From a virus, in IMG/VR virus record IMGVR_UViG_3300027704_000009, positions 1 through 64,000 of that record: a DNA stretch of 64,000 nucleotides. The stretch is one strand, 5' to 3'. The notes below the pieces were generated by a model, which searched no databases, was not told the origin of the DNA, and was given only the letters and a program-made list of their open reading frames with translations. Below are positions 1,460 through 37,688 of this stretch, piece after piece. Each line of letters begins with the position of its first letter. The stretch's first letter is position 1. The position numbers and the translations under genes were made by a program.

Positions 1460-1487
1460 TTGACAAACTGAATAAACAGTGTATAAT
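1460..1487 (+). promoter_or_regulatory. Promoter of the radical SAM operon
   Basis: TTGACA (1460-1465) and TATAAT (1482-1487) with a 16-base spacer, about 30 bases before the first radical SAM start codon. No comparable promoter was noticed inside the following 17 kb on this strand, so it is the best candidate to drive the operon. Confidence 0.75.
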
Positions 1488-1518: not shown

Positions 1519-2823
1519 ATGACGAAACCCAATAAGAAAAGCCCTACACACTGTATGTTACCATGGATTCATTCGCATACTAGTGCTAATGGAACCTTCA
1601 AACCATGTTGTAATGCCATGGGCAGTGATCAACCACTGTGGACCAGTGATGCAAATGATGAAAGCACGTGGTATAAACAGGATCCTAACGCTACTAATGT
1701 AGCAAGAGCCGGCGATAGTATGAGTATAAGACGTAACAACATGACATTAAGTGAGTGGTTCACTAGTGCTTACATGGATAAACTACGCAATGACCTTGCT
1801 AATGGTGTACAAAACCCTATGTGTGGAAGGTGTTGGAGAGATGAAACTCGTAGTGGTACTAGTATAAGACAAAGATATAACAGTAAGTATGAACATCATA
1901 CCACTGTTGAACCTGCGATCTCATACCTAGACCTCAAGTTAACCAACCAATGTAACCTCAAGTGTAGGATGTGTGGCCCAAGTGACAGTAATTTAATAGC
2001 ACAAGACATAGTAGAACTAGAATCCCGGGGGTTGACAGTGCCCGTTAACTATGCTAATGCCTTCGGCCCTAGGAGAAGAAGCCATGCAGATACCAATTAC
2101 ATCGGAGGTTTGCCGGCAAGTACACTAGAAGACATTGAACATCTACTACCACAGTTAACACAACTTAAAGTAACCGGTGGTGAACCAACGCTACAACCAG
2201 AAGTACTACGCTTGTTCGATAGATGTATAGACAACAAGTATGCAGAAAACATTGAACTACACGTTACTACCAATGCTACCAAGTTTACAACAAAGTTTCT
2301 TGAACGTATAGAGCAATTTAAGAACACAAGATTCAATATAAGCGTTGATGGTTATGGTACAACATACAATTACATACGCTATCCCTTTACATGGGACAAG
2401 TTTAATGCTCGTATACAGTTACTAGAAAGTAGATACACTAGTAGTACTACAATACATTGGGCCTATACTTGTGTACCACAGATGTTTAACATAGAGAACA
2501 TACATAAACTACAACAACGAGTAGGGTCAGAACATTTATATGTGAACAATGTGCTACACCCTGACGGTATATACAACAGTTTAGACATAGTACCTGAACA
2601 TATACTAGTATACGCACTAGAGAACATAGAGTATGTTGAAGGTCAAAGTGATATTTTAATTAATTATATTAAAACATTATTAAATGATTATAAGCCCGTG
2701 ACTAAGAGTAGACTAGCAGACATGGTAAAGAGTGTTACTAGTGTAGACATACTACGCAATCAGCACTACAGTGAGTGTTTAGACCCCTTAACAGTGAAGT
2801 TTATAACTGAATCAGCATTGTAG
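1519..2823 (+). CDS. Radical SAM protein with N-terminal twitch-like module (copy 1)
   Basis: Radical SAM enzymes use a [4Fe-4S] cluster held by CxxxCxxC to split S-adenosylmethionine and make a 5'-deoxyadenosyl radical. Here the motif is C145-C149-C152 (CNLKCRMC), followed by the SAM-binding GGEP motif at 220-223. The N-terminus carries C12-x-x-P-W and C30-C31, an arrangement seen in twitch-type auxiliary-cluster modules. At 434 aa it matches the other long members of this operon. It is the first gene after the promoter at 1460-1487. Unlike its neighbours it is rich in CTA leucine codons and in ACTAGT words. The substrate is unknown. Confidence 0.85.
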   Translation: MTKPNKKSPTHCMLPWIHSHTSANGTFKPCCNAMGSDQPLWTSDANDESTWYKQDPNATNVARAGDSMSIRRNNMTLSEWFTSAYMDKLRNDLANGVQNPMCGRCWRDETRSGTSIRQRYNSKYEHHTTVEPAISYLDLKLTNQCNLKCRMCGPSDSNLIAQDIVELESRGLTVPVNYANAFGPRRRSHADTNYIGGLPASTLEDIEHLLPQLTQLKVTGGEPTLQPEVLRLFDRCIDNKYAENIELHVTTNATKFTTKFLERIEQFKNTRFNISVDGYGTTYNYIRYPFTWDKFNARIQLLESRYTSSTTIHWAYTCVPQMFNIENIHKLQQRVGSEHLYVNNVLHPDGIYNSLDIVPEHILVYALENIEYVEGQSDILINYIKTLLNDYKPVTKSRLADMVKSVTSVDILRNQHYSECLDPLTVKFITESAL

Positions 2824-3210
2824 ACGGTTGTAATGGACATACCTTGAGAAACGGAAGCGACAGAAAGGCATACCTCAGCGACTCGAACCGACCTATAAGA
2901 AAAATTCTACACCCTAGATTCAGTATCACTACTAGTGTAATTAAATGAATTTACTTGCTCTTTGGTTGTTTCTCTAGTATAATGAGTACTATAAGCAGTG
3001 CTAAATAGTAGTGCGTATACTAGTTCTATAGTGTGTGCTTTCCCCATGCAAACTTTAACTACTATACAACTGTATACTATAATGTGAATTAAATCATTTA
3101 TTATTTTTAGTTCTCTACTAGTGTAAAACAAACCTGTACTAGTGTAGAACAGAGTAAATAACAATACTATTAGAGTAACAATGCTAACTATCAATTACAA
3201 GAGAACATAG
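2824..3210. other. Intergenic spacer inside the radical SAM operon
   Basis: This is the only long gap in the operon. Bases 2835-2896 are distinctly richer in GC and contain two similar words, GGACATACCT and AGGCATACCT. The rest is AT-rich and holds three TACTAGTGTA decamers. A minus-strand frame here (2907-3194) starts with TTG and is low complexity, so it is not called. No tRNA fold could be made. Confidence 0.5.
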
Positions 3211-4809
3211 ATGTCAAAACTGGACAACCCATACGATAAAACACAATTTACTACTAATCCATTAGAACCTTTAAGTGTACTATCATTAAAAGAACGCAAA
3301 GCAAACAAATGGTTTGATGCTGAAGGCAACACTATGTTTCAATATGAACGTGTTAAACGTTTAGAATTGGAATTCAATAATACTTGTTTCTTATACTGTG
3401 GAGGTTGTGGACGTACATTTAATCCAGAACTAGAGAAAGCAGGTAAGAAACTAATCATGCTTAAAGACGTTAAAAAGTTCTTCCCACCCGAATTTTGTGC
3501 TCAACTGCATTATTTTTTAAGTTGCGGTAACTATGGTGATCCAACAGCACATCCAGAGACATTAGACATACTACGTTGGTTTAGAACAAATGGAACAAAG
3601 AACGTAAGCATAAGTTCAAACGGAGCAAGTCGTAGTCCTGAATGGTGGGCTGAACTGGCTGGCATCATCAATGGAGAAGGTGGAAGCCGTGATGATATTA
3701 AAAACTATTACGGCGGTAGAGTTACCTTTAGCATTGACGGACTAGCAGACACCAACCATTTATACCGTGTGGGTGCAAAATGGGATAGGATAGTGGAAAA
3801 TGTTACTGCGTTTATTAATGCAGGAGGCAGAGCTAGATGGCAATGGATTATGATGAACCATAATGAACACCAATTAGAAGAAGCAAAAGCATGGGCTAAA
3901 GAAATAGGCTTTAGTGAGTTTATAGAAAAGGTTAGTTTTAGATATAACCCCATACGCATGAGCAAACGTGAAGCAGAGAAACTAGCAGAAGACCAAGAGT
4001 TTGAAATGCTTAAAGACCGTAGTTTAAAGCAGGAGGAACTGCGAAAAGACGTTAGTATGAAATTTGAGCTTACCGACGCTAATGCGGCACTGAGTGCCCG
4101 AGCCGCCAAGCAAGGTGGCACCGAATTGAGCCCAGTTAATGTAAGTATTAATCCAGAGAATCAACATCCTTATAGAGAAAAGATTAAAGGCATACACGAA
4201 CGTACAAGCAAGACTGCTAAAAAGTTTTGGAGCACTAAACAAAACATTATATGTCAAAACATAGGTGATCCAAGGATATATGTTGATGCAACAGGTAAAG
4301 TATGGCCCTGCAATTGGTTAGGTGGAATAGAGTTTTATGAAAATAAGGACAAGCATTGGCCTCTACCAAGTTATAAGAAGTATGGTATAGATGATCAATG
4401 GAACAGTTTATATAACTTTGCAGACGACGATAATCCAGTTAGAAGCATACTAGAACATCCTTTTTATGAGTATTTGTTAGAAGAAGATTGGAAACATAGT
4501 AGTGAAATGCAACCTGCTAAATGTAAACAAATGTGTCATACAGAGCTAGGTGATGGTATATTTGAAAGTATGAGACGTAATGAACAGAATTTAAAAACTG
4601 GTGAGTATAAAGACATCAGCGAAATACATGATACAGGTATTACTAAAGATGGTGGTCAAGTTGTTATGGCTCCAGAAGGTCAAAAGACTGGACGCTTTAA
4701 ACATCAAGGCGGAACAGGTATTGGTCCTGGCAGTAACAAGGCTGTAGAAGGATTAGATCAAAGCATACTAGATATTGAAACAATAGATGAAGACACCAAC
4801 GAATCATAA
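3211..4809 (+). CDS. Radical SAM protein with C-terminal SPASM-like module (532 aa)
   Basis: CxxxCxxC lies at C59-C63-C66 (CFLYCGGC). It is followed by a glycine-rich GNYGD segment in place of GGEP, also seen in the shorter relatives at 7993 and 13694. The C-terminal half contains Cys in an IICQNIGDPR context, a PCNW turn and CKQMCHTE, consistent with auxiliary Fe-S ligands. It is about 170 residues longer than its relatives, with a charged insertion in the middle and a Gly-rich, acidic tail. It overlaps the next gene by 23 bases, so the two are probably co-translated. Confidence 0.8.
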   Translation: MSKLDNPYDKTQFTTNPLEPLSVLSLKERKANKWFDAEGNTMFQYERVKRLELEFNNTCFLYCGGCGRTFNPELEKAGKKLIMLKDVKKFFPPEFCAQLHYFLSCGNYGDPTAHPETLDILRWFRTNGTKNVSISSNGASRSPEWWAELAGIINGEGGSRDDIKNYYGGRVTFSIDGLADTNHLYRVGAKWDRIVENVTAFINAGGRARWQWIMMNHNEHQLEEAKAWAKEIGFSEFIEKVSFRYNPIRMSKREAEKLAEDQEFEMLKDRSLKQEELRKDVSMKFELTDANAALSARAAKQGGTELSPVNVSINPENQHPYREKIKGIHERTSKTAKKFWSTKQNIICQNIGDPRIYVDATGKVWPCNWLGGIEFYENKDKHWPLPSYKKYGIDDQWNSLYNFADDDNPVRSILEHPFYEYLLEEDWKHSSEMQPAKCKQMCHTELGDGIFESMRRNEQNLKTGEYKDISEIHDTGITKDGGQVVMAPEGQKTGRFKHQGGTGIGPGSNKAVEGLDQSILDIETIDEDTNES

Positions 4810-6097
4810 ACAATTAAAAGGCTTTTGTGTACTGCCTTTTATTCATTTAAGCACACGCACTGATGGTAGTATGCAGATATGCTGTCATGCTAACAGTAGT
4901 AGTACGGAAGATAATAGAAAACCCGGCGTTAATCGTAAAGATGATGGTAGTTTAGTTAATCTAAAGCAGGATAGAGCTGAAGACTATTGGAATACAGAGT
5001 TTATGCGTACTATACGCACAGATATGTTGGCAAATAAGATGCCAAGAGCTTGTTTAACTTGTTATAAAGAAGAAGGATTAGGCTATCGCAGTAAACGTGT
5101 ATGGGAAAACGAAGAGTGGGAAAGGCGTATTGATGTGCCTGCATTATTAAAAGGTGTTGACAATAGTGGAGCAATGAGTTATGGTATACACTATGTTGAT
5201 ATGAAGTTAGGTAATAAATGTGACCTTGCTTGTGTTATGTGCAACCCTGCTGATAGTACACAATGGATACCTGACTATAATAAATTAATTAGCAGTGCTA
5301 GTGATGAATTAAATAAAGAAGTTTATTGGAATAAATCAGAAGCAGGTGGATATAATTGGTGGAAAAATAATAAAACATATTGGACTGACATATATGAGCA
5401 GTTGCATAACCTAAGACATATTTATATTATTGGTGGTGAGCCAACTATTAATAAAGAATTTAAACAGTTCTTACAGTATTGCGTAGATAATAATTATGCA
5501 AAAGGTATTGAATTAAGATTTAATACTAATGGACAAACAATAGATCCTGAATTAAAACAATTATACACAAAATTTAAACATTGTTTAATTCATTTAAGCA
5601 TGGACGGTATATACGAACGTTATGAATATATTCGTTATCCTGGTACATGGGCTAAAGAATTAGAAGTATTAAAGTATTGGGACAATATGCCTGACAACGT
5701 AACAGTTGACATCGACTGTACAGTTAGTGCATTAAACGTTAGCCATATACCAGACTTTGTGCGTTGGAAGATGGATCAAGGCTTTAAAAAATTAAATAAA
5801 ACAAGATTCGGTGGCACTATAGGAATGCATTTACTATGGACACCCAACTTCTTAGGCATTAATAATTTAAATGATGAAATAAAAGCCAAAGCAAGTAACG
5901 ATATAGCACAACTACGCATGGAACTTGGTACAACAGTTACAAATAGATATAAAAAGTTTGATGCACTATTAAATGCACTAGATAAACCAGCAACAAATAT
6001 AACAGTCTTAGTTGAGTACTTGGACAAAATGGATAAGATAAGAGGAACTTCATGGCAGGATACATTTCCAGAACTAATCAGTTTGCGAAAGAGCTAA
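4787..6097 (+). CDS. Radical SAM protein with N-terminal twitch-like module (copy 2)
   Basis: C14-x-x-P-F and C32-C33 form the N-terminal module, and the radical SAM motif is C145-C149-C152 (CDLACVMC). A GGEPT loop follows. Length (436 aa) and motif positions match the first gene almost exactly, so the two are paralogues. The start lies inside the end of the previous SPASM-type gene, making the first SPASM/twitch pair of the operon. Confidence 0.85.
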   Translation: MKTPTNHKQLKGFCVLPFIHLSTRTDGSMQICCHANSSSTEDNRKPGVNRKDDGSLVNLKQDRAEDYWNTEFMRTIRTDMLANKMPRACLTCYKEEGLGYRSKRVWENEEWERRIDVPALLKGVDNSGAMSYGIHYVDMKLGNKCDLACVMCNPADSTQWIPDYNKLISSASDELNKEVYWNKSEAGGYNWWKNNKTYWTDIYEQLHNLRHIYIIGGEPTINKEFKQFLQYCVDNNYAKGIELRFNTNGQTIDPELKQLYTKFKHCLIHLSMDGIYERYEYIRYPGTWAKELEVLKYWDNMPDNVTVDIDCTVSALNVSHIPDFVRWKMDQGFKKLNKTRFGGTIGMHLLWTPNFLGINNLNDEIKAKASNDIAQLRMELGTTVTNRYKKFDALLNALDKPATNITVLVEYLDKMDKIRGTSWQDTFPELISLRKS

Positions 6098-7026
6098 TAG
6101 AAAAAGAATTAATTAGCCACAAACAGCACAACGCAATATACGATTACTTTTTTCAAACAACATTAAGAGACGCACCGTGGTATGATTGGTTAGACCAACC
6201 CGGATACTTTGAAGTTGCGGGTGAATATAAAGAACGTATAACTGAATGGATTGTTGATAATGATTTTAATACTGTACATGGATTAGATAACTTTAAGCAT
6301 CGCGATTTAATTAATGGAACTACACAAGCATTTGATGAAGCATATTATAGATACAGTGGCAGACGTTTAAGAATATTGCGTGGCGAGTATGCGTATCACA
6401 AACGTGTTGTGTCTGATTATGTTTATTTAGACGAAGTATATTCAGAAGATTTAAGCATGAGCCAATTAGATGGTGATAACCCAATAAAAGAAAACGATTG
6501 GGTAATAATTAGTTTCCCATTTTGTGGAACAGGCGGAACTCCATTAGGATATCATGCAATATTAAATGATTGTTTGTTAAAAAAGGTTCCTGTATTAATA
6601 GATTGTGCTTGGTATGGAACTTGTATGGATCAACATATTGATTTAACACACCCTGCTATCAGTGAAGTAAGTTTTAGTTTAACTAAAAGCACAGGTACAG
6701 GCAACATTAGAAGTGGTGTGCGTTACAGTAATTACGAAGATAACTTACCAATTAGACAACAAAACAATTATAATCATTTAGTATTGGGAGCGGCACAAGT
6801 AGGTATTCATGTAATGAAACATATACCTAGTGACTGGCAAGTAAAGAATTACAGAGATTTTCAAATACAACTATGTCGTAAGTTAAACATTATGCCTAGT
6901 CCATGTATGCATATCGCAATAGCAGATGGTGAAGAAGATTGGCACAAGGACTTCTTAATGGACCAACGACATTACAAAGTTGGCATTAGACAGGCACTTA
7001 AGGCAATGAAGAAGGAACAACTTTAA
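6052..7026 (+). CDS. PLP-dependent fold type I enzyme, aminotransferase-like
   Basis: The middle of the protein carries VLIDCAWYG, where D184 would contact the pyridine nitrogen, and SFSLTKSTGTGNIRSGV, where K212 is the likely Schiff-base lysine. Both are hallmarks of fold type I aminotransferases and related enzymes. At 324 aa it is shorter than the usual 380-420 aa. The ATG is preceded by AGAGGA at a good distance, although the gene overlaps the previous one by 46 bases. It could add or remove an amino group on the operon's substrate (inference). A decarboxylase or lyase of the same fold is the alternative. Confidence 0.55.
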   Translation: MAGYISRTNQFAKELIEKELISHKQHNAIYDYFFQTTLRDAPWYDWLDQPGYFEVAGEYKERITEWIVDNDFNTVHGLDNFKHRDLINGTTQAFDEAYYRYSGRRLRILRGEYAYHKRVVSDYVYLDEVYSEDLSMSQLDGDNPIKENDWVIISFPFCGTGGTPLGYHAILNDCLLKKVPVLIDCAWYGTCMDQHIDLTHPAISEVSFSLTKSTGTGNIRSGVRYSNYEDNLPIRQQNNYNHLVLGAAQVGIHVMKHIPSDWQVKNYRDFQIQLCRKLNIMPSPCMHIAIADGEEDWHKDFLMDQRHYKVGIRQALKAMKKEQL

Positions 7027-7292
7027 TGAGTATGATTTCTCCATGTATCAGCATATGTAGATGGGATCCAGTAACCAGTAACTGTTACGGATGTGGTCGT
7101 ACTGTTGCAGAGAAAATGATATGGAAAGACCAGGATACCACAGACGAGTGGAAAGAAAACAATTTAAAAGAGTGCATGGAAAGATTATCAGGGTGGCAAT
7201 TAGAAAGTTTCAAGGAATCATATCAGCATAAGATTAAATACGGTATATCCTTGTTTAAAAAAGAAATGAAGAAGAAACAACTTTAATGAGTA
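7006..7292 (+). repeat. 27-bp direct repeat flanking the DUF1289 gene
   Basis: The segments at 7006-7032 and 7266-7292 are identical except for one base. Each encodes the end of a gene (MKKEQL or MKKKQL), its TAA and the overlapping ATG of the next gene. A small gene cassette bounded by the same 27 bases suggests insertion or duplication by recombination at the repeat. Confidence 0.75.
7026..7286 (+). CDS. DUF1289-family small Cys protein
   Basis: The N-terminus SPCISICRWDP...CYGCGRTVAEK...W matches the DUF1289 pattern: four cysteines (C7, C11, C20, C23), then GRT and a Trp. The family is common in proteobacteria and is thought to bind a metal or Fe-S cluster; no reaction is known. It overlaps both neighbours by one base (TAATG) and sits between two copies of a 27-bp repeat. 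The context suggests a helper for the Fe-S enzymes around it. Confidence 0.75.
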   Translation: MSMISPCISICRWDPVTSNCYGCGRTVAEKMIWKDQDTTDEWKENNLKECMERLSGWQLESFKESYQHKIKYGISLFKKEMKKKQL

Positions 7293-8002
7293 ACACACCT
7301 AATCCTGTAATTCGAATTATTGGCGATAGTTTTTTTACTAAAACTAAACGTAATTGGCTAGACCGTGCTATAGATCCAACACAGTTTACAATACATAACA
7401 GTGCTAAAGGTGGTACTGGCTTTTGGAGACAGTTAGATCAAGTAAAAGATTTAAAGAACCAAGACTATTATAATAATATTAAATATTGTATAGTAGGGTG
7501 GAGTCATCCATTTAGAATGTATGCTCCAGAGTATATGAGAGACTGGCGTATGAACGATCCAGCACTTTGTGATGAGGAGTTCTTTGGAGTCAAACACGAT
7601 CCTGGACTTAAAGCAAAGCAAGGTACAGTTTCTAATATGATTAAGTATGATTTAATAAATGAAGGTAGAGAATGTACTAAAGCATACGACTTATTACAGT
7701 ATGTTGATGCAGTATTATATCCTAGTATGCCACATATTAAATTCATTAACTTCTTTTGCTTTGACTTTGATTATATAGATGTAACATTAAATGACTTTAA
7801 CTTTAAAAACGCTGTTACAATACATCCAACATTATTTGATATTTGTACTGCTGATGAAAAGGATCCTGATAAAAAGGTAACTCCTATGGACGTTAATAAT
7901 CATTTAAATCATATACAACATAAAGGCATGGCATTAATGTTGGCAAATATAATACGTGATACAGAACAATTCAAACGAGTGAATATTAATAAATGGCTTT
8001 AG
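7286..8002 (+). CDS. SGNH-hydrolase-like protein
   Basis: Begins with IIGDSFF (G13-D14-S15), the block I nucleophile motif of SGNH/GDSL esterases. Near the end, NHLNHIQHKGMA resembles the block V His region. The central G and N blocks are less clear, so the esterase activity is a prediction. It is one of several SGNH-like proteins in the window (see 62141 and, more distantly, 34268 and 35110) and lies among radical SAM genes, where it could remove or transfer an acyl group. Confidence 0.55.
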   Translation: MSNTPNPVIRIIGDSFFTKTKRNWLDRAIDPTQFTIHNSAKGGTGFWRQLDQVKDLKNQDYYNNIKYCIVGWSHPFRMYAPEYMRDWRMNDPALCDEEFFGVKHDPGLKAKQGTVSNMIKYDLINEGRECTKAYDLLQYVDAVLYPSMPHIKFINFFCFDFDYIDVTLNDFNFKNAVTIHPTLFDICTADEKDPDKKVTPMDVNNHLNHIQHKGMALMLANIIRDTEQFKRVNINKWL

Positions 8003-9066
8003 ACATAGATAAAATTAACTACATGATGATAGAGTTTACATCGGCTTGTAATGCCAGATGTCCTGCTTGTGCAAGAACACAGCACTTTGTTAACAGTGGA
8101 ATAACTCCTCATGGTAGTAGACAAATAACAATGGACCATATGAAGAATCTTTTTGGTATCAAATGGCCCAATTTAAGAAAACTTAATATTGATGGCAACT
8201 ATGGTGACAGTATGTATCACCCACACAGTTTAGAATTATTGGAATACATCGCTGACACACAAGATGCATCTAAGATTAAGTTATACATTGATTCCAATGG
8301 AGGCTACAAGAAGCCTGAGTTTTGGACAAAGTTGGGCGACTTAATGAAACGTTTTCATCCTACAAGTTGTATTACATTCGGCATCGATGGAATAGATCCA
8401 GAAATGCATGCCAGGTACAGAGTAAGAGTAGACTTAAACAAAGTATTTGAAAATGCTAAAGCGTTTATCGATAATGGTGGCAACGCTGAATGGAAATGGA
8501 TTGGCTTTGATTATAATGATCACCAATTGGAAGATGCTAAACGTATGAGTAAAGAAATGGGGTTCAGTGCGTTTATATATAAAAATACTAGAGTAAGACA
8601 TAGTATTATACGTGAAGCAATGGGTCTACAAGACTTAGACAAGGGTGTTAGTGCTACGAGTAAGAATGTTAACAGTACAATTAGTCAAGAGATAGTTGCA
8701 CAAGCAAAGAAAGAAATTAAAAGTGTTAAAGACTTTGCTAACGATAGTACAATACATTGTAGGTTCCGTAGGGAAAAGAACTATGGATTTCAAGTAGAAC
8801 ACAGTGGCAGAATATATCAATGCTGTCATTTACCTGGGTACTATAATTACCAACAACCTGGCACTGAGATTTATAAAGAATATGAATATTATACAAATAA
8901 ATACAACACTAACTGGAACAGTTTAGACGAACACGGAATAATGGATATATTAAATCACCAATACTTCCAGCACGACTTAACAGACAGTTTTAATAACAGA
9001 ACAGATGCAACTGAAAACCCTAGAATAAACAGATGTATTTCAAAATGCGGATCAATTGATGCTTAA
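7993..9066 (+). CDS. Radical SAM protein with C-terminal SPASM-like module (357 aa)
   Basis: CxxxCxxC is C19-C23-C26 (CNARCPAC), very near the start, so there is no twitch module in front. The C-terminus has C in a TIHCRF context, IYQCCHLPG and CISKCGS, a typical SPASM-like set for auxiliary clusters. The same order is found at 13694 and, split, at 16106/16809. It overlaps the SGNH gene by 10 bases and the next gene by 8. Confidence 0.85.
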   Translation: MALDIDKINYMMIEFTSACNARCPACARTQHFVNSGITPHGSRQITMDHMKNLFGIKWPNLRKLNIDGNYGDSMYHPHSLELLEYIADTQDASKIKLYIDSNGGYKKPEFWTKLGDLMKRFHPTSCITFGIDGIDPEMHARYRVRVDLNKVFENAKAFIDNGGNAEWKWIGFDYNDHQLEDAKRMSKEMGFSAFIYKNTRVRHSIIREAMGLQDLDKGVSATSKNVNSTISQEIVAQAKKEIKSVKDFANDSTIHCRFRREKNYGFQVEHSGRIYQCCHLPGYYNYQQPGTEIYKEYEYYTNKYNTNWNSLDEHGIMDILNHQYFQHDLTDSFNNRTDATENPRINRCISKCGSIDA

Positions 9067-10321: not shown

Positions 10322-11061
10322 TGGAATGGCTTGATATAATAAACAACAGGCACACAACGTTTGCTTGGGAAGAAGATAAGATACCAACAGAGGAAGAACT
10401 TGTGGACGTTCTGCAGGAGGTATTCGCACATATACCATCTAAAAATTTACAGTTTCCTTATCAAGTAAGACTTTTAAGGAATAATGATCCTGCGATAAGC
10501 AAAGAAATAATGACTATTTGTAAACGAAACGAACACAAAACAGATGAAGAAGATCTAGGAAATCCTCAAGTACTTGCTCCGTGGCTTATAGGATTTTGTT
10601 CTAGATATGTAGCAGACTTAGAGTCGAGATACGAATCAGACTCAACAAGAGGCCTAGACACGTTTGAACTTCCGGAAGTAGGCACTAGAGAAAGAAAAGC
10701 AAAAATACAAAATCGTGCTGGTAGTGAACGAGGACAAATGCAAACAGAAAATATTGAAATAGGTATTATGTCTACTTATATTATGTTAGCAATGGCTAAT
10801 AGAGGAATACAAACTGGTATGTGTCAAAACATACAAAGAGATTACACTAGAGCGGAAGAGATATTCGATATCGATAGTGATGTTAAAAACCTAGACTTTA
10901 GATTTATAATGGGAGTTGGGTATGGAAAAGATGCTAGTATAAAGCACGAGTACTTCGATCCTAGAATAGATAAAACAAAACTAATTCCGTTTAAGCCAGT
11001 TAATGTAGAAAAAGTATACCCTCGTCCTGTGTTCGACGATGTAATTAAGGTGGTAAAATAA
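10321..11061 (+). CDS. Nitroreductase-like flavoprotein
   Basis: The N-terminus (NNRHTTFAWEEDKIP, then a helix and PSKNLQFPY) resembles the start of the nitroreductase fold, where an Arg-rich segment binds FMN and a P-S-x-x-N-x-Q-P segment follows. The C-terminal third has a conserved-looking helix, LAMANRGIQTGMC, and a FIMGVGYGK segment also typical of the family. Length (246 aa) fits. The family reduces or dehydrogenates small molecules with FMN. Assignment rests on pattern likeness only. Confidence 0.5.
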   Translation: MEWLDIINNRHTTFAWEEDKIPTEEELVDVLQEVFAHIPSKNLQFPYQVRLLRNNDPAISKEIMTICKRNEHKTDEEDLGNPQVLAPWLIGFCSRYVADLESRYESDSTRGLDTFELPEVGTRERKAKIQNRAGSERGQMQTENIEIGIMSTYIMLAMANRGIQTGMCQNIQRDYTRAEEIFDIDSDVKNLDFRFIMGVGYGKDASIKHEYFDPRIDKTKLIPFKPVNVEKVYPRPVFDDVIKVVK

Positions 11062-12218
11062 TGAAAAATACAATTTGTTCAGCACCTTGGCAAGCAACAT
11101 ACTATAAAGAAAGTATGGGCAAATACAAAATGTGTTGTAGTTTTAAAAAATGGACTAAAGCAGAAAGTCCTGAAGATTATTACAACTCGCCAATGGTAGA
11201 ATCTGTTAGAGAGAAAATGCTTAACGGAGAATGGCATGAAGGTTGTACACTTTGTCACAAATTAGAAAACGCGGGTCTTGAAAGTGATAGAGAAACATTT
11301 AATAAACATTTAGAAGTTGACAAATTAGATACAAGTAAGTTTGAACTTAAATGGTTAGATTATAGACCAGGAAACTTATGTAACTTAAAATGTAGAATGT
11401 GTCATTCTAGTAACAGTAGTTTAATCGATAAAGAAACAAAAAAACATCCTGAATTGAAAAAATTTATGGAGACAATACCTGAATACGAATCGGAATTATT
11501 ACCAAGTATTTGCAATGATGAAACCTTTAGAGATTTAGAAGTATTAAAAATATTAGGCGGTGAACCAACTATTGATCCACAAGTACAAAAATTACTAGAG
11601 TGGACAATTAGTAATGGATACGCAAAGAATATTAATTTGCGTTACACAACAAATGCAACAAACATAAATGAAAATTGGATTAAAGCAGTTAAACAATTTA
11701 AAACAACAAAGATTCAATTAAGTTTAGATGGCACAGGCAAAACATACGACTATATTAGAACAGGCGCCAATTGGCATAAAATTAAAGAAAATATTATGTT
11801 AATGCCTAAAAAGATTAATAACATTAGAAACATTGGTTCTAATATTGTGTTTAGTGTCTATGACTGTTTTACTATTGATCAGTGGTATCCAGAGTTGTTA
11901 GAAATAAAAGAAACTATGCAACGAGAATATGGTATAGACATTAACTTTAATATTATTGATTGTACTTGGCCCACTTATCAAATGGTATCTAATTTACCTG
12001 AGGAATACAAACAAATTGTAGTAGACAAAATCGATAGTATGCCAATGGATAAAGTTTTAAAAGCAGTTAGACATCACACTACTAAAAAAGCAAAAGGCAT
12101 ACCAGAAAAAGAAGTTGCTATGTTCTTTGAACATAACGATATGCTAGATAGAATTAGAAAAACAAATATCAATGATATAAGCGAACACTATGAAACACTT
12201 CGACAGAACACATTATAA
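11061..12218 (+). CDS. Radical SAM protein with N-terminal twitch-like module (copy 4)
   Basis: C6-x-x-P-W and C25-C26 near the start, radical SAM motif C107-C111-C114 (CNLKCRMC), then LGGEPT. At 385 aa it is the shortest twitch-type member because the segment between the two Cys modules is reduced. It overlaps the previous gene by one base and the next by 29 bases. Confidence 0.85.
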   Translation: MKNTICSAPWQATYYKESMGKYKMCCSFKKWTKAESPEDYYNSPMVESVREKMLNGEWHEGCTLCHKLENAGLESDRETFNKHLEVDKLDTSKFELKWLDYRPGNLCNLKCRMCHSSNSSLIDKETKKHPELKKFMETIPEYESELLPSICNDETFRDLEVLKILGGEPTIDPQVQKLLEWTISNGYAKNINLRYTTNATNINENWIKAVKQFKTTKIQLSLDGTGKTYDYIRTGANWHKIKENIMLMPKKINNIRNIGSNIVFSVYDCFTIDQWYPELLEIKETMQREYGIDINFNIIDCTWPTYQMVSNLPEEYKQIVVDKIDSMPMDKVLKAVRHHTTKKAKGIPEKEVAMFFEHNDMLDRIRKTNINDISEHYETLRQNTL

Positions 12219-13701
12219 AGATCCAGAACATTACGAACAGAGTATAAAAGATAAAGGTTGTTCAGGCTTTTGTCCTATACCCTGGGTTAGTCTAGGAGTT
12301 AATAACAACGGTGACTATCGTATGTGTGTTCAAGCCGCGGCTAATAGAAAAAATAACATCAGAGGACAATGTAAAGGCCCTGACGGTGTTACTATGCGTA
12401 TCGAAGACACTAGCATTGCCGATAGTCGTAACAGCGAAGTAATGAAAGAAACAAGACGTGATATGATTGCAGGCAAGAGAAGTGATCATTGCGTTCGTTG
12501 TAACAGAGAAGATGATGCTGGTAGTAACAGCCGACGTTGGCTTGACTTAAAGAAGTATTGGCAAGAGTTTGACATCGACGATGCAATAGAGAATACAGCC
12601 AAAGATGGTAGCATAGACACAGAGGAATATCCATTATTAGACTTAGACTTACGTTTAGATAACACTTGTAACTTGAAGTGTCGTATGTGTGGGCCTACTG
12701 AGAGTCATCAATGGTACACTGAATGGATGAAGACAACAGGATACAAAAAGTTTAAAGCGTATGACCACACTGTTAATTTAGAAATGCAAGGTAGCCGAGC
12801 TAAAATAGTTGGTAAGAGTCCATATGGCTGGAGCGACAGAATCGATGTTGCAGAGATACTTCAGAAAGATGCACCTCACTTAAAACAAATATATATGAGT
12901 GGAGGCGAACCTTTAATCATTAATCAACAGTACGAAGTATTACAACAGTATATCGATAATGGTACTGCAAAAGACTTAGAGATCGATTACAATACAAACT
13001 TTACAAGTATTCCACAACGTGCATTAGATCAATGGAAACACTTTAGACAGGTTAACATTGGTGGAAGTGTAGACGGTATCGATAAAGTAAACGACTACGT
13101 TAGGTATCCAAGTAAGTGGACACAGATAAAAGAGAACATAACAAAATTAGATACCCAAACAGAAGATAATGTAACGTGTTGGTTAACATACACCTGGCAA
13201 ATATTAAATGTGTTAAGTGTTACAGACATTATAGAGTATTGTTTAGAGCAAGACTTTGTTAAGTTTAATCGATATAGTCAAAGTGCTTTCTTTACATATC
13301 ACCCTGTGCATAATCCTGCATATTATTGTGTAACTAGTCTGCCAGACCCTGCAAAAGAGTATGTAACAAAGTATATAACTGATTGGATGAATGGTTGGTT
13401 TAAAGAATGGTGTGATAGTAAGCCTAGAGACTATAAAATGTCTAACAGTAATTATGAAATGAGAAACCATGGTAAGATTACAAGAGATTGGGACAATGGC
13501 CCTGATGCTTTATATGAAATCACTTGCAAACAATTGAATAGTATGTTACAATTTATGAATGCACGAAGTACAGTAGAGGAACTACCTGAAATGTGGAGAC
13601 GTACACGCATTTTAGATGAAAGTAGAGGAGAAAACTTTGAAGAAGTTTATCCTGAACTTGCAGTTCATATTAAAAAACACTTAGGCATTAGTAATGATTA
13701 A
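12190..13701 (+). CDS. Radical SAM protein with N-terminal twitch-like module (copy 5)
   Basis: N-terminal C24, C28-x-x-P-W and a single C46 (MCVQ) where the others have CC, so one auxiliary ligand may be missing or replaced by C24. The radical SAM motif is C160-C164-C167 (CNLKCRMC), followed by a GPTESHQW segment and SGGEP. At 503 aa it is the longest twitch-type copy. It shares the GPT-SH-W signature with 14785, its closest relative here. The ATG of the next gene lies in ATGATTAA at its stop. Confidence 0.85.
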   Translation: MKHFDRTHYKDPEHYEQSIKDKGCSGFCPIPWVSLGVNNNGDYRMCVQAAANRKNNIRGQCKGPDGVTMRIEDTSIADSRNSEVMKETRRDMIAGKRSDHCVRCNREDDAGSNSRRWLDLKKYWQEFDIDDAIENTAKDGSIDTEEYPLLDLDLRLDNTCNLKCRMCGPTESHQWYTEWMKTTGYKKFKAYDHTVNLEMQGSRAKIVGKSPYGWSDRIDVAEILQKDAPHLKQIYMSGGEPLIINQQYEVLQQYIDNGTAKDLEIDYNTNFTSIPQRALDQWKHFRQVNIGGSVDGIDKVNDYVRYPSKWTQIKENITKLDTQTEDNVTCWLTYTWQILNVLSVTDIIEYCLEQDFVKFNRYSQSAFFTYHPVHNPAYYCVTSLPDPAKEYVTKYITDWMNGWFKEWCDSKPRDYKMSNSNYEMRNHGKITRDWDNGPDALYEITCKQLNSMLQFMNARSTVEELPEMWRRTRILDESRGENFEEVYPELAVHIKKHLGISND

Positions 13702-14788
13702 ATTACAAGATTTAGAATCAATACAATTAGAAATTACAAGTAATTGTAATGCCATGTGTTTAGATTGTGCTAGAAACATTGATGGAGTAAAACTTAATCC
13801 ATATGTAGAGTTTGGTAAAGCAGGAAACATGAGCTTTGAATTATTTAAAAGTATACTTAACAAAAAGACATTACCTAACTTTAAGAAGTTAGAACTAGAT
13901 GGTAACTTTGGTGATAGTTTAATACACCCACAGAGTTACGAGTTTATGGAATACTATTGTAATGAGTTTCCAGGAACTAATATCGAGATTAATTCTAATG
14001 GATCTTATAATGACACAGACTGGTGGTATAAGTTAGGAAAGTTATTATCCACACATCTTAATAGGAGACCGGAGCATATTAAGTTTGGTATAGATGGAGT
14101 AGACTTTGAAACACACGGAATATATAGACGTAACTTAGATTACAATAAAATTATAGATAACGCAACAGCATTTATGGCAGGTGGAGGTGTTGCTACATGG
14201 AAGTTTTTAGAGTTCGACCATAATACACATCAAGTTGAACAAGCAAGACAACTAGCAAAAGAATTAGGATTTCAAAGATTTTATTTGAAAGCAACAAGGA
14301 ATAAAACAAGAGTAATTGAAGAAACTTTAGATAATAAATCTTATAAGGTAACTGGACAAGCAACAAAGAAAAAAGAACATATTGAAATAGATTCAATGGA
14401 TAAGGCTACAAGAAATGTTTTAGAAACTCATATAAAAAGTATTGTAAGTGATACTGAAAACTTTTATGATACAAGTACAGTCCGTTGTCCATGGCAAAGA
14501 CGTAAGATGATACAAATAGACTACGATGGTAGAATATATCAATGTTGTCATATTGGTGGAAAATATGGTAGAACAAAGAACTTTAAACATAAAGAGTATC
14601 AATATTACATTGACAAATATGGCATCGATTGGAATAACTTAAATATACATACAATACAAGAAGTTTTTGATCATCCATACTGGAAAGACCTCGACGAAAG
14701 TTTTAACAACAGTATACATGATAAATCAAATCCAAGAATTAAAAGATGCGTTGAAAAATGTTCAGCGGAATTATGGAGTAATGCATGA
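13694..14788 (+). CDS. Radical SAM protein with C-terminal SPASM-like module (364 aa)
   Basis: CxxxCxxC at C18-C22-C25 (CNAMCLDC), DGNFGDS in the position of GGEP, and a C-terminal SPASM-like region with VRCPW, IYQCCHIGG and CVEKCSAE. Organisation matches the 7993 gene. Its ATG overlaps the preceding stop (ATGATTAA) and its stop overlaps the next ATG (ATGA), so it lies between two twitch-type partners with coupled translation. Confidence 0.85.
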   Translation: MIKLQDLESIQLEITSNCNAMCLDCARNIDGVKLNPYVEFGKAGNMSFELFKSILNKKTLPNFKKLELDGNFGDSLIHPQSYEFMEYYCNEFPGTNIEINSNGSYNDTDWWYKLGKLLSTHLNRRPEHIKFGIDGVDFETHGIYRRNLDYNKIIDNATAFMAGGGVATWKFLEFDHNTHQVEQARQLAKELGFQRFYLKATRNKTRVIEETLDNKSYKVTGQATKKKEHIEIDSMDKATRNVLETHIKSIVSDTENFYDTSTVRCPWQRRKMIQIDYDGRIYQCCHIGGKYGRTKNFKHKEYQYYIDKYGIDWNNLNIHTIQEVFDHPYWKDLDESFNNSIHDKSNPRIKRCVEKCSAELWSNA

Positions 14789-16113
14789 GTAAAACATTTT
14801 GTCCAATACCTTGGAACTTTCAGGCTATTAGAAATAATGGCGACATTCGTATTTGCTGTCAAGCAAACGTAACAAAGAATCAAGGTGTAGTTAGACATAA
14901 AGACGGCACTCCGTATAATGCAGGTAAGCATAGTATGAAGCAGGCTCGTAATGCAGACTTAATGAAAGCAGTTCGAAAGAATATGCTTGAAGGTAAGTGG
15001 AGCGACGAATGTACTCGTTGTAAGCAAGAAGAAGACGTAGGACTTAACAGTAGACGTCAATACGAATTGCAAACATGGAAAGAATTTGATATACGACAAG
15101 CACAAGTGTTGACATCAGAAGATGGAACTATTGATACTAGCAATTCTCCTGTTGTTTATTATGATTTACGGTTTGGTAACTTATGCAATCTACAATGTAG
15201 GATGTGTGGACCAACAGATAGTCATAGTTGGTATGAACAGTGGACAGACTATCATAAAGAAGATGGCTTCCAAGACACACATGGTTATGTTAAACTTGAA
15301 CGTAATGCAAAAGGTAGGCTAGACACTGATGATTATAGTTGGCATGGCTCTACTAGTTTTTGGAATAACATTGAAAAGAATTTAGATAATATTCGACACG
15401 TTTATATGGCAGGCGGCGAACCTATGATGATCGAAAGACATTACGAGTTCCTAGAGAAGTGTGTAAAGAAAGGTGTTGCTAAGAATATATTAATTGAATA
15501 CAATACTAACATGACAGCATTGCCTGATAGAGTATTAGAGTATTGGAAACATTTTAAAGAAGTAAGAGTTGGTGCTAGTATAGATGGTATGGGCAAAGTA
15601 CTAGAGTATCAACGTTATCCAATTAAATGGGAACAAGCAAAGAAGAATTTAGATAAGTTAGATAAGTTCTGCCAAGAGAACAGCAACGTAATGGCATGGA
15701 TCGCTTATACAGTAACAGTAAACAATATATGGCACTTGCCGGAGTTTATGTTATGGAAAGTTAATGCTAGTGGGTGGAAGAAGATTAATAGTACATTAAA
15801 GAGACCTGTTATAACTCACCATGTTGCACATGGACCCAGACGTGCTAACATTAGGTTACTTCCTGAGGATATGAAAGACGAATTAGAATTATTTTATACA
15901 GGTTGGAAGAAGATTTTCGAAGGAGAGTTTACTGATTTACAGACAGAAAAGGCTTGCAAAATACTAGATAGTGTGTTACAATATTGTAAATCAGAAGATT
16001 ACTCTGATGCATTACCTGAGTTTAAGAAGTTTACAAAGTATTTAGACATATCAAGAAACCAAAGTATACTCGATGTTGCTCCTAGATACAAACGATTGTT
16101 CGACAATGATTAA
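14785..16113 (+). CDS. Radical SAM protein with N-terminal twitch-like module (copy 6)
   Basis: C6-P-I-P-W and C24-C25 form the N-terminal module. The radical SAM motif is C134-C138-C141 (CNLQCRMC), followed by GPTDSHSW and AGGEP. Length is 442 aa. It is close in layout to 12190. The downstream SPASM-type gene starts within its last codons. Confidence 0.85.
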   Translation: MSKTFCPIPWNFQAIRNNGDIRICCQANVTKNQGVVRHKDGTPYNAGKHSMKQARNADLMKAVRKNMLEGKWSDECTRCKQEEDVGLNSRRQYELQTWKEFDIRQAQVLTSEDGTIDTSNSPVVYYDLRFGNLCNLQCRMCGPTDSHSWYEQWTDYHKEDGFQDTHGYVKLERNAKGRLDTDDYSWHGSTSFWNNIEKNLDNIRHVYMAGGEPMMIERHYEFLEKCVKKGVAKNILIEYNTNMTALPDRVLEYWKHFKEVRVGASIDGMGKVLEYQRYPIKWEQAKKNLDKLDKFCQENSNVMAWIAYTVTVNNIWHLPEFMLWKVNASGWKKINSTLKRPVITHHVAHGPRRANIRLLPEDMKDELELFYTGWKKIFEGEFTDLQTEKACKILDSVLQYCKSEDYSDALPEFKKFTKYLDISRNQSILDVAPRYKRLFDND

Positions 16114-16825
16114 AGAAGGATACGAAGGACTTAACAATTCAGTATATTTGGAAGGTGGGTTTAGAATACAAATAGAATCCAGCACAAGATGTAACTGCTT
16201 ATGTCCTGGTTGCTCTAGAACAAAGACTAAAGCAAAGTATGATGCAGGTGAGAGTGAACTTATGTATCCTATTATGGATATGAGTTTAGATAATTTTAAA
16301 CTGTTAGTTCGTCCTGAGAATAATATTAAACGTATAACATATAGTCTTACATTAGGAGATCCTATATACAGTGGATCGTTTTTAGAACAAGTGCATTACT
16401 TAAATACTTTAGATAAACGTCCTTGGATTAATTTACATACTAACGGCAGTGGTCGTTCTAAAGATTGGTGGAGTAAACTAGGTAAACTACTACGAGGTAG
16501 AGATAGAGTTGAGTTTACTATTGATGGACTAGAAGATACAAATAAGATTTATAGAATTAACTCAAAGTGGAATACAGTTATAGATGGCTTTAAGGCTTTA
16601 AAGACGAGTATAAATGAAATAGATAGTGATGCTGAAGTAGATGTAAGACATCTTATATTCGAACACAACTATCACCAAACACTAGATGTTTGTAAACTCG
16701 CACAAGACTTAAAGGCAAACACGTTGCGTATATTTGTTGGAGATGGCAGAACACCAGAACATATGAGATTAAAGAGTAAACAGTGGAACGACATTAAAGG
16801 AGAGATAGATGCCTATTTACCCTAA
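16106..16825 (+). CDS. Radical SAM core lacking its SPASM part (first half of a split gene)
   Basis: CxxxCxxC at C29-C33-C36 (CNCLCPGC, with an extra C31), then a LTLGDP turn and a DVRHLIFEHN segment aligned with the other SPASM-type members. The frame stops after 239 codons, exactly where its relatives enter the auxiliary-cluster region. The missing part is encoded by the next gene in the +1 frame. The start at 16106 (ATGATTAA overlap) is preferred over the ATG at 16073. Confidence 0.8.
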   Translation: MIKEGYEGLNNSVYLEGGFRIQIESSTRCNCLCPGCSRTKTKAKYDAGESELMYPIMDMSLDNFKLLVRPENNIKRITYSLTLGDPIYSGSFLEQVHYLNTLDKRPWINLHTNGSGRSKDWWSKLGKLLRGRDRVEFTIDGLEDTNKIYRINSKWNTVIDGFKALKTSINEIDSDAEVDVRHLIFEHNYHQTLDVCKLAQDLKANTLRIFVGDGRTPEHMRLKSKQWNDIKGEIDAYLP

Positions 16826-17159
16826 ATGTAAATACAGAGATGACCAGCCACCTATCCTAAGAGTAGATGGATATGTTGGACCTTGTTGTCACTTCGGCGG
16901 CGAGTCTCCGTGGTTCGACTTAAAAAATTTACTTGGAGATAAAATAGAACAACTGCATATCTCAAACGGCACAATGGATGAAATTAATCGTAGTGAAGCA
17001 AGTTACATGATAGAACAAAGTTTTACAGATGCTCCAATGGATAGTTGTAAACAAATGTGTGGCAAACCGTTCTTACAAACAAGTAAGGAAGGCGGCTTCT
17101 CTACAGCAAACGACAGAGTAATGATTAAAAACTTAATAAAAAGTAGATTAGATGACTGA
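16809..17159 (+). CDS. Stand-alone SPASM-like Cys domain (second half of a split gene)
   Basis: 116 residues starting MPIYPKCKY, followed by LRVDGYVGPCCHFGG and CKQMCGKP. This matches the C-terminal cluster region of 7993 and 13694. It overlaps the core gene by 17 bases in the +1 frame and has a strong SD of its own (AAAGGAGAG before ATG). Together the two halves make 355 residues, equal to the intact relatives (357 and 364 aa). This could be an old frameshift rescued by re-initiation, or a true two-subunit enzyme. Confidence 0.8.
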   Translation: MPIYPKCKYRDDQPPILRVDGYVGPCCHFGGESPWFDLKNLLGDKIEQLHISNGTMDEINRSEASYMIEQSFTDAPMDSCKQMCGKPFLQTSKEGGFSTANDRVMIKNLIKSRLDD

Positions 17160-18258
17160 TTTAAAAACAAGTGAATATGACTTTAGTGCTATACCCTTTG
17201 ACGATTTAGTTAGTGTTGGGCAACGTACTTTACTTCATAGAGATATTTTTACAGTTAGTTGGCTACTAGGAAGATTTTGTAACTACAAATGTTCTTATTG
17301 TTGGCCCTATGCTCGTAGTGATAGAAAAGACCATAGACCTACGGAACTATGTCTATCAACTATTGACGAAATTAAGAGACAGGCAAGAGACAATGGCTTT
17401 AATAGTTTTCATTTTAGTTTAAGTGGAGGCGAGCCAACTTTTCATCCTGGTTACTTAGATATTTTAAAACATTTAAGTGACGATGCTCACAATACAAACT
17501 ACACAAGTGTACACATGACTAGTAATTGTAGTCGTAACATGAAGTGGTTTGAAACGTATGTCGATTACGCAAGTAAGTTTCACCGTGCTAGTATTACTTG
17601 TAGTCTACACGTTGAACACGTCGACACACCTGAGAAAATGCAGGACCTTGCAAACAAACTTATACTATGTCAAGAACATGATGTACAAGTAACTATTAAT
17701 ATGGTTATGGTTCCAGAAGTATTTGACAAGTATTATGAGAATGCATTGTTCTTTCATAATCAGAACATTAACGTAACTTTAAAGCCTATGAGTGATCCAA
17801 CTGCAAGTAGAGTCGTTGATGGTTATACAGAGGAAATGAAGCAAAAACTGTATAATGATATGCCACAACGTGCATATACTGAGATTAAAAATAAATACGT
17901 TAGTAGACCAAAGCCCAATTGGAAGCCTTTACCAGAAATGAAATTGGACAATGGAACAGTACCTCAGCATTTTCAAGTAGAGTTTGAAGATAATAAAGGC
18001 AAGAAATGGTACATGGATCAAGCAGAACGCTTTAATGCGTTTAATTTTAATAAATTTACTGGTTGGCAATGCAATGCAGGGTTCCAAGGAATTATAATAA
18101 GAGAACCAGACGGCTCAATTAAGAGAAGTTATAGTTGCAGTGACAGTCCACTAGGAAATATCGAAACAGGGTTTAAGTTATTTAATAAACCGATGCCTTG
18201 TATTTCAAACTCGTGTGTATCTAGTGCAGACAGTAAGATTCCAAAAAGGAAAGAATGA
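17152..18258 (+). CDS. Radical SAM protein of a third type (368 aa)
   Basis: Radical SAM motif C43-C47-C50 (CNYKCSYC) followed by LSGGEPTFH. Sequence after the motif is unlike the twitch and SPASM groups of the operon. The C-terminus holds several Cys (GWQCNAGFQG, SYSCSDSP, PCISNSCVSS) that could bind an auxiliary cluster. The last radical SAM gene of the operon, it overlaps the split gene by 8 bases and the small ORF behind it by 4 (ATGA). Confidence 0.85.
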   Translation: MTDLKTSEYDFSAIPFDDLVSVGQRTLLHRDIFTVSWLLGRFCNYKCSYCWPYARSDRKDHRPTELCLSTIDEIKRQARDNGFNSFHFSLSGGEPTFHPGYLDILKHLSDDAHNTNYTSVHMTSNCSRNMKWFETYVDYASKFHRASITCSLHVEHVDTPEKMQDLANKLILCQEHDVQVTINMVMVPEVFDKYYENALFFHNQNINVTLKPMSDPTASRVVDGYTEEMKQKLYNDMPQRAYTEIKNKYVSRPKPNWKPLPEMKLDNGTVPQHFQVEFEDNKGKKWYMDQAERFNAFNFNKFTGWQCNAGFQGIIIREPDGSIKRSYSCSDSPLGNIETGFKLFNKPMPCISNSCVSSADSKIPKRKE

Positions 18259-18434
18259 GTAACAACGACGACAAACGAAAACAAAGAGATCCGAAAGGAA
18301 TATTCGCGGGAATGGACGACGAATCGTTTAGTAAGTTAACTAAAACTTACGGAACAAATCCATCAAGTAAACGCCCGATCAATCAACAGAGTAAAAAACA
18401 TGACAGACAAAACAAAAGAAGAAATAATAGTTGA
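18255..18434 (+). CDS. Small hydrophilic protein (59 aa)
   Basis: Starts MSNNDDKRKQRDPKGIFAGM, is Lys/Arg/Asn/Ser-rich, has no Cys, and ends RRNNS. The ATG overlaps the TGA of the radical SAM gene (ATGA), which argues for real translation; the frame runs 35 bases into the NfuA-like gene. No family was recognised. A peptide substrate for the operon is conceivable, but nothing in the sequence shows it. Confidence 0.5.
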   Translation: MSNNDDKRKQRDPKGIFAGMDDESFSKLTKTYGTNPSSKRPINQQSKKHDRQNKRRNNS

Positions 18435-18768
18435 GATTAAAAAAGTTGTAGAAGAATATGTACAACCTAATGTAGCACAACATGGTGGAACTGTTACACT
18501 CGAAGACTTTGATATGGAAACTGGACAAGCAACAATGCTAATGAGCGGAAGTTGTTCAGGCTGTGCAAGTAGTATGATGACACTTAAAATGGGTGTTGAG
18601 AATATGCTTAAACATTACATACAAGAAGTTAAAAGTGTAGTCGGTGTAGATGATCCCGCTTTCAATAATCCTTATTATACCAATGCAGAATTTTATGATG
18701 ATTGGCGTGAGGAAGACTTTTTCGAACAAGGTGAGACACAGGTGTTAAATGATCCAATCAAAAATTAA
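18400..18768 (+). CDS. NfuA/NifU C-terminal type Fe-S carrier
   Basis: The protein is almost only the NifU C-terminal domain: IKKVVEEYVQPNVAQHGG, then MSGSCSGCASS with the cluster-binding C52-x-x-C55, then LKMGVENMLK. Known members bind a [4Fe-4S] cluster between two subunits and hand it to client enzymes. A 40-residue acidic tail follows. Placed right behind eleven radical SAM cores, each of which needs at least one such cluster, it is probably their carrier. Confidence 0.9.
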   Translation: MTDKTKEEIIVEIKKVVEEYVQPNVAQHGGTVTLEDFDMETGQATMLMSGSCSGCASSMMTLKMGVENMLKHYIQEVKSVVGVDDPAFNNPYYTNAEFYDDWREEDFFEQGETQVLNDPIKN

Positions 18769-37683: not shown

Positions 37684-37688
37684 TGTTT

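Follow-up and report, generated by a model that had tools for sequence, protein, structure and literature searches.

What does a phage do with eleven radical S-adenosylmethionine (rSAM) enzymes encoded side by side? The question is raised by IMG/VR virus record IMGVR_UViG_3300027704_000009 (136,449 bases), of which the first 64 kb (here called the window) carries eleven rSAM cores, all on the plus strand, at positions 1519 to 18258. We regard the chances as about even that this array forms the rSAM-rich portion of a host-recognition island, with its enzymes tailoring a glycan, or a fiber bearing one, on the virion or host surface. The promoter and genes of the array are listed below; T proteins have an N-terminal twitch module, and S proteins and R1 a C-terminal Cys module.

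1460..1487, +, perfect sigma-70-type promoter, predicted from the consensus (12/12 matches), ending 31 bases before T1
1519..2823, +, T1, N-terminal-twitch rSAM protein, 434 aa (NF033640, 267 bits; PF04055, 49.5 bits)
3211..4809, +, S1, rSAM protein with C-terminal Cys module, 532 aa (NF033640, 2.2e-10; PF04055, 19.6 bits, below cut-off)
4787..6097, +, T2, N-terminal-twitch rSAM protein, 436 aa (NF033640, 354 bits)
6052..7026, +, AT, aminotransferase-like protein, 324 aa, its own sequence without a family match and assigned through a bacterial homologue (L190:9337-10221, 46% identity; Aminotran_1_2, 0.0022, below cut-off)
7026..7286, +, DUF1289 protein, 86 aa (PF06945, 1.1e-10)
7286..8002, +, SGNH-like protein, 238 aa, assigned by eye from its IRIIGDSF start alone; no family match
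7993..9066, +, S2, rSAM protein with C-terminal Cys module, 357 aa (PF04055, 32.5 bits)
9056..10321, +, T3, N-terminal-twitch rSAM protein, 421 aa (NF033640, 241 bits; no Pfam match)
10321..11061, +, nitroreductase-like protein, 246 aa (PF00881, 0.0077, below cut-off)
11061..12218, +, T4, N-terminal-twitch rSAM protein, 385 aa (NF033640, 275 bits)
12190..13701, +, T5, N-terminal-twitch rSAM protein, 503 aa (NF033640, 330 bits)
13694..14788, +, S3, rSAM protein with C-terminal Cys module, 364 aa (TIGR04317, 1.1e-12; PF04055, 19.0 bits, and SPASM, 18.1 bits, both below cut-off)
14785..16113, +, T6, N-terminal-twitch rSAM protein, 442 aa, member of the core shared with Bdellovibrionota (NF033640, 367 bits)
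16073..16825, +, S4a, rSAM half of a split rSAM/SPASM pair, 250 aa (PF04055, 37.4 bits)
16809..17159, +, S4b, SPASM-like half, 116 aa (PF13186, 16.9 bits, below cut-off)
17152..18258, +, R1, rSAM protein with C-terminal Cys module, 368 aa, core member (PF04055, 50.2 bits)

The initial annotation had placed the eleven cores at these positions on the basis of their CxxxCxxC motifs and had proposed rSAM models as the test of them. All eleven passed, T3, S1 and S3 through models from outside Pfam and the other eight (T1, T2, S2, T4, T5, T6, R1 and S4a) with PF04055 scores over the cut-off; chance occurrence of the motif was rejected on these profile scores. The prediction of six N-terminal twitch proteins was also borne out. 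T1 to T6 all score as members of NF033640, the NCBIfam model for twitch domain-containing rSAM proteins, the name of which gives no reaction; their 241 to 367 bits compare with a whole-protein cut-off of 170 bits, which none of the S-type and R1 proteins scored on this model reached. Four cysteines (C6, C24, C76 and C79) lie ahead of CxxxCxxC and are invariant in all 14 aligned T proteins, and the N-terminal module of T2 was itself matched by the SPASM profile (21.6 bits versus a cut-off of 21.5).

Four proteins with a C-terminal Cys module, one of them split, had likewise been correctly recognized. S1 to S3 and their relatives share four invariant C-terminal cysteines (12 of 12 aligned), and PF13186 (cut-off, 21.5) gave 18.1 bits for S3 and 16.9 bits for S4b, with no listed match for S1, S2 or R1. 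R1, which had been set apart as the one other core, does contain an rSAM core but does not stand apart, as it has four invariant C-terminal cysteines in a 7-row alignment and therefore also looks SPASM/twitch-like. The split of S4 is real. Its halves occupy separate frames in overlapping open reading frames (ORFs) in three related phages (this one and two relatives), a comparable rSAM/SPASM pair occurs in Pelagibacter phage Mosig and in one Bdellovibrionota genome, and the KC..CC..C..C pattern of S4b is kept in the Mosig and L150 halves. A single sequencing error was rejected as the cause, since the frames differ, stops lie upstream in the S4b frame of each of the three phages, and the split is found repeatedly.

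The array had further been described as overlapping genes on one strand behind one promoter. The strand is as described, but T1 and S1 are separated by approximately 390 bases, so the genes do not all overlap and a single transcript is likewise unproven. As to the promoter, the perfect consensus at 1460-1487 was found, but three more on the opposite strand of the same gap point leftward (four perfect sigma-70 consensus promoters in approximately 430 bases, 1061-1487) and weaker sigma-70 matches lie inside the array genes, leaving the claim of one promoter unproven. An Rfam scan of window positions 1 to 24000 gave nothing at gathering scores. A scan of the window for the T4-late-promoter-like TATAAATA was uninformative on the array: the motif is rarer than chance (2 copies versus 11.2 expected), with one copy about 40 bases ahead of the ORF at 26783 and elsewhere as if avoided.

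The count of eleven holds for the window but is incomplete. A nearly identical sister IMG/VR record, G009 (306,714 bases), ends in 459 bases that match window bases 2 to 460 at 99.8%, and the window then continues into the start of G009, so the array spans the contig ends of that record. Upstream in G009 lie four further rSAM genes (L029:3528, 14392, 15477 and 16631), giving a total of 15 in approximately 34 kb, including S3, which was missed by profile scans and shown by sequence comparison. A sixteenth rSAM gene (about 107 kb) and a QueE-like gene (about 37 kb) are located outside the array in G009. The array belongs to a block of approximately 58 kb, on one strand except for small ORFs, in which tail-type genes are followed by sugar and rSAM genes and then by iron-sulfur (Fe-S) genes, and which ends with the gene following that of an AMP-binding enzyme.

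An assembly artifact was excluded as the source of this arrangement, because the same order recurs in independent viral contigs from other samples, namely diverged records from samples 3300028844 and 3300025137 and a near-identical record from sample 3300027668. Relatives G001 and G002 keep the order with some genes exchanged; S3, for example, is 95% identical in G002 and was not found at its place in G001. Distant relatives retain T6 (62 to 65% identity), the most conserved T protein, designated u16631 type (59 to 62%), and, where the available stretch covers it, R1 (68 to 80%), whereas the other genes differ. PF04055 matches number 8 to 19 per record in G001 to G008, 11 in G009 and 2 in G010, figures that leave out some cores and take in rSAM genes from elsewhere in the records. 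In a tree of 89 cores, the T, S and R1 clades are separate and orthologue groups with members in distant phages are visible, in agreement with the old paralogue groups that the initial annotation had anticipated together with a recurring order; 55 of the 86 inner branches pass both support limits, and the tree carries long-branch warnings. The array is under purifying selection, with dN/dS values of 0.048 to 0.459 in 30 of 31 gene pairs (one was saturated) and most cysteines retained. Against one relative, dS varies gene by gene inside the array from 0.24 to 1.53, as expected of exchangeable tailoring genes. The DNA polymerase of the window (55815-58472) is nearest to those of jumbo phages Phosso (48.7%) and Atu_ph07 (45.4%).

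To see what accompanies such genes elsewhere, relatives of the u16631-type protein were sought by alignment scan; they were found in at least 575 viral stretches, of which 80 loci were kept. The median number of rSAM genes in these loci is 5, with 2 to 14 in the 33 long ones, and 73 of the 80 hold a GT-A-fold family, u10922. Carbamoyltransferase (16 loci), the AT homologue (12) and amidinotransferase (10) are also found. The model of u10922 (predicted local distance difference test [pLDDT] score, 93.7) has a GT-A fold: all 22 Foldseek matches at E ≤0.001 are glycosyltransferases (TM-scores of 0.37 to 0.47 by query), and the best match in a second structure comparison was B4GALNT1 (Z of 11.7 over 137 residues, 2.7 Å). 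Smaller cassettes of rSAM and sugar genes are annotated in Pelagibacter phage Mosig, where tail genes accompany them, and Campylobacter phage CP220 and were seen by inspection among hypothetical proteins of Vibrio phage K566. Vibrio phage QD01 gave T4-like rSAM matches only.

Tail genes adjoin the array. In the tail-type stretch upstream in G009, two of the six proteins scanned have PHROG tail-fiber, baseplate or virion-structural matches. Of the 44 viral loci with at least 4 kb of upstream sequence, 11 carry genes from two tail-block families there, on the same strand, and such genes were found downstream in 0 of 9; the PHROG-supported 490-aa type is present in 5 of 10 loci with tail-block genes upstream. 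With tail-type genes and the GT-A-fold family in one block, the array has the arrangement expected of a pelagimyophage-type host recognition cluster, an island next to tail-fiber genes with glycosyltransferases.

The sugar genes upstream in G009 include those for a phosphomannomutase-like enzyme, two nucleotide-sugar dehydrogenases, a DegT aminotransferase, an O-carbamoyltransferase, a cytidylyltransferase-like enzyme and GT-A-type enzymes. The amidinotransferase is StrB1-like: it matches inosamine-phosphate amidinotransferase (1bwd) at 1.4e-82, far ahead of the next structure, which scored 1.6e-48, suggesting that the acceptor is an amino-cyclitol or amino sugar. Aminocyclitols are substrates of twitch-type rSAM enzymes. 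The set of amidinotransferase, aminotransferase and O-carbamoyltransferase resembles that of StrB1/aminoglycoside tailoring, differing in that it is phage-borne. We therefore propose, from this gene content, that in a jumbo relative of T4-type phages the sugar-activating and tailoring enzymes and GT-A-type glycosyltransferases, putatively including u10922, would build a glycan, and that each paralogous rSAM enzyme would make a different C-H change on the glycan or its sugar building blocks. The suggestion that the paralogues act on different sites of one polymer fits these neighbors. The product would be displayed on tail fibers or the virion, or on the surface of the infected host.

Upstream in G009 there is also a RuBisCO-like protein (L029:1530-2666; G009 288530-289666; PF00016, 4.2e-35). 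Searches for this family matched 183 viral stretches, and of the 80 loci kept (L034-L113), 73 encode proteins 48 to 56% identical to that of G009; a search of 50,697 records of named phages gave no match. Within 4 kb of the gene in the 80 loci are nucleotidyltransferase-like proteins (78 loci, by inspection), cupins (54) and a GDPD-like 148-aa protein (51, by inspection). A role in SAM by-product salvage was considered and set aside, as these neighbors look like a sugar module; the family and its neighbors are possibly an undescribed viral sugar module. As a partial control for the association of u10922 with rSAM genes, u10922 was found in 10 of the 26 RuBisCO-like loci with rSAM genes and in none of the 54 without; several of these are near-identical contigs, so that the P value overstates the association. 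Proteins of unassigned family in the block include u11574, which had no Pfam or NCBIfam match and was labeled a methyltransferase from reading of its sequence.

Downstream of the array, the window continues with the following genes.

18400..18768, +, NifU-like Fe-S scaffold domain protein (PF01106, 5.5e-22)
18749..19150, +, SufE (PF02657, 2.5e-27)
19207..19803, +, X198, no Pfam match; a 31% identical homologue (L204:6136-6723) lies inside a Bdellovibrionota cluster
20318..21028, +, AMP-binding enzyme, 236 aa (PF00501, 1.2e-15)
22946..23362, -, IscU-type Fe-S scaffold, just outside the block (PF01592, 3e-52)

The NifU-like, SufE and opposite-strand IscU-type proteins can supply Fe-S clusters, and in the proposed scheme they would feed the many rSAM enzymes. 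Relative G002 additionally carries nucleosidase-family and phosphoribosyltransferase genes, which possibly clear SAM by-products, and a GCV_T-like protein below the cut-off that reads as YgfZ-like. Such genes would also suit an auxiliary metabolic role in which the rSAM enzymes boost cofactor or secondary metabolism of the host during infection, an idea that Timms et al. (2010, PMC2853527, in the part of that paper available) put forward for Campylobacter phages. We consider this explanation unlikely. The only model at or over its cut-off among the best 25 matches for ten rSAM proteins (S4 excluded) was NF033640, which has no assigned pathway, and a fixed cofactor pathway would not be expected to consist of fifteen paralogues that change from one close relative to another. 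From their sequences, the proteins at 21015, 21709 and 23364 appear sulfotransferase-like, and several others SGNH- or GT-like; a Pfam scan of those at 21015 and 23364 gave no match.

The window also contains genes that by eye encode QueE, QueD, a queuosine-precursor transporter, FolE and TGT-like proteins (36778-38138, 45281-45889, 47437-48123 and 53543-55006), likely a deazaguanine DNA modification set. Since rSAM enzymes occur in phage nucleotide hypermodification, the array might be tied to these genes in modifying DNA or RNA. This is very improbable in our estimation, as the deazaguanine genes lie approximately 18 to 37 kb past the end of the array on the opposite strand, the neighbors of the array are sugar and tail genes, and the same core is found in bacterial genomes. 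Elsewhere in the window, a 999-aa protein (41335-44334) appears by inspection to be a secreted protease of the subtilisin type, with repeats rich in Glu and Pro and a C terminus resembling a barrel.

The bacterial occurrence of the core was surveyed by a genome scan, which found 129 T6 relatives, up to 51% identical; 75 loci were kept, and 53 of these belong by record title (hand count) to Bdellovibrio-, Bacteriovorax- or Oligoflexia-type bacteria. NF033640 proteins occur in 41 of 144 sampled genomes of the phylum of G014 (Bdellovibrionia), four of the 41 being known beforehand, with up to 19 matches in one genome that was picked for carrying them. One bacterial frame of 1004 aa (G093:C28:4820-7672) has two tandem NF033640 matches. 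In several clusters, such as L128, L129, L130 and L190, the u16631-, u14392-, R1- and T6-type proteins occur together, R1 being 57 to 63% identical to three bacterial proteins (L129, L130 and L190). The clusters also include the GT-A family (L128 and L130), the AT homologue (L190) and both X198 and AT homologues (L204).

Bacterial neighborhoods and structural comparisons bear on the main rival to a glycan substrate, namely, that the rSAM enzymes act directly on side chains of tail-fiber or adhesin proteins, in the manner of ribosomally synthesized and posttranslationally modified peptides (cross-links, epimerization or methylation), with glycosylation running in parallel. The predicted fold of T6 is closest to rSAM structures (model pLDDT, 67), the nearest being peptide- or protein-acting enzymes (among them SkfB, CteB, anSME and SuiB) and viperin. 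The best match of the T profile to PDB sequences was also SkfB, a comparison that cannot separate sugar from peptide enzymes. In 3 of the 11 bacterial genomes searched (G012, G016 and G020), an N-twitch gene most like L030:12501 has a PqqD/RRE-type protein no more than 0.4 kb away, and in L202, L203 and L153 a short S74 fiber-chaperone protein is encoded at a distance of 0.4 to 10 kb from an N-twitch gene. Aspartyl/asparaginyl hydroxylase-like genes adjoin N-twitch genes in L150 and L134, and the tail genes preceding the array also suit a fiber-protein substrate. Against it, PqqD (PF05402) was present in none of nine phage records searched (two from the same phage and several fragments), and PF05118 members are not confined to protein substrates. 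No precursor peptide was recognized among ORFs in the array gaps. A 73-aa protein (L029:12268-12489) with homologues in 40 of the 80 viral rSAM loci is conserved over its whole length; neither NCBIfam nor named phages gave a match to it. Direct action on fiber proteins is thus possible, though we lean against it.

The N-twitch rSAM, PqqD-type and short S74 genes at L202:14933-17142, L203:2382-4234 and 14018-14491, and L153:12034-12804 resemble peptide-modification cassettes. Of the 12 genomes or records searched, 9 have Peptidase_S74, but only G020 and G016 have it within approximately 10 kb of an N-twitch gene, and the two tail-block profiles had no match in the 75 genome loci; S74 genes beside bacterial arrays therefore offer weak general support for fiber modification. 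According to the available text of PMC10769870, S74 fiber adhesins serve Bdellovibrio in prey recognition, and a link between these adhesins and the rSAM genes may exist.

Several observations weigh against glycan tailoring as the function of the array. The T6 model, as far as its nearest structures indicate, does not favor sugars. The nucleotidyltransferases IspD and MobA align with u10922 at Z of 10 to 10.8, close to the 11.7 of the best glycosyltransferase, and the GT-A-type fold is common to nucleotidyltransferases, so u10922 need not transfer sugars. Tail-block genes are within reach in only those 11 of 44 viral loci, and the GT-A family is present in only 6 of the 75 genome loci, three of which (L132, L134 and L144) are in bins named for other groups. 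The T-type rSAM genes of Vibrio phage KVP40 have no annotated sugar neighbors within 8 kb. No polymerase or flippase was seen by eye in the phage block, no dedicated search having been made, and both the glycan substrate and its product are proposed from gene content.

We next considered how far the array had been anticipated. The initial annotation took such rSAM multiplicity in phages to be undescribed, which is contradicted by the literature as far as the available portions of the papers cited here extend. Campylobacter phages CP220 and CPt10 have 11 and 12 rSAM proteins, respectively (PMC2853527), the marine T4-like TARA_ERS488813_N000010 has 12 rSAM genes and an Fe-S carrier (Nishimura et al. 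2017, PMC5332604), and the host-recognition cluster of pelagimyophages holds rSAM cassettes and glycosyltransferases, the latter suggested to alter the host O-chain (Zaragoza-Solas et al. 2020, PMC7029224). The array is therefore not a new kind. It resembles the pelagimyophage cluster, a hypervariable island by the tail fibers of T4-like phages in which rSAM cassettes accompany glycosyltransferases and sugar genes, and differs from it in its 15 rSAM genes in approximately 34 kb, amidinotransferase, RuBisCO-like protein and Fe-S genes. It shares rSAM genes with amidinotransferase and nucleotide-sugar transferase-like genes with the exchangeable CP220/CPt10 cluster, and many rSAM and Fe-S assembly genes with the marine TARA virus. 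The CP220 rSAM proteins are S-type, R-type or unassigned, with no N-twitch array in the stretch examined, and are 26 to 29% identical to those of this phage. The accessible part of the Mosig genome announcement does not mention its rSAM cassette, and no report of the function of the array was found in the open-access papers searched. Thus, rSAM-rich phages are already known, and this array is extreme in size and is tied here to a bacterial core.

That core leads to a more tentative extension of the host-recognition reading, which we think rather doubtful as a whole. The core quartet (T6-, R1-, u16631- and u14392-type proteins) and its GT-A partner might form a new class of rSAM-dependent maturation system, common to large phages and Bdellovibrio-like bacteria, that decorates fibers recognizing Gram-negative cells. 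The other paralogues, including the two-protein split rSAM/SPASM enzyme, would then be swappable tailoring enzymes that set the chemical type.

With at least 575 viral stretches encoding u16631-type relatives, the question reaches beyond one odd genome. If the host-recognition reading is right, some phages carry radical enzymes for the tailoring of surface molecules at an unusually high density, representing untapped C-H chemistry, and tail fibers would be directly linked to chemical decoration. The core shared with Bdellovibrionota would offer a testable bridge from phage adsorption to bacterial predation.

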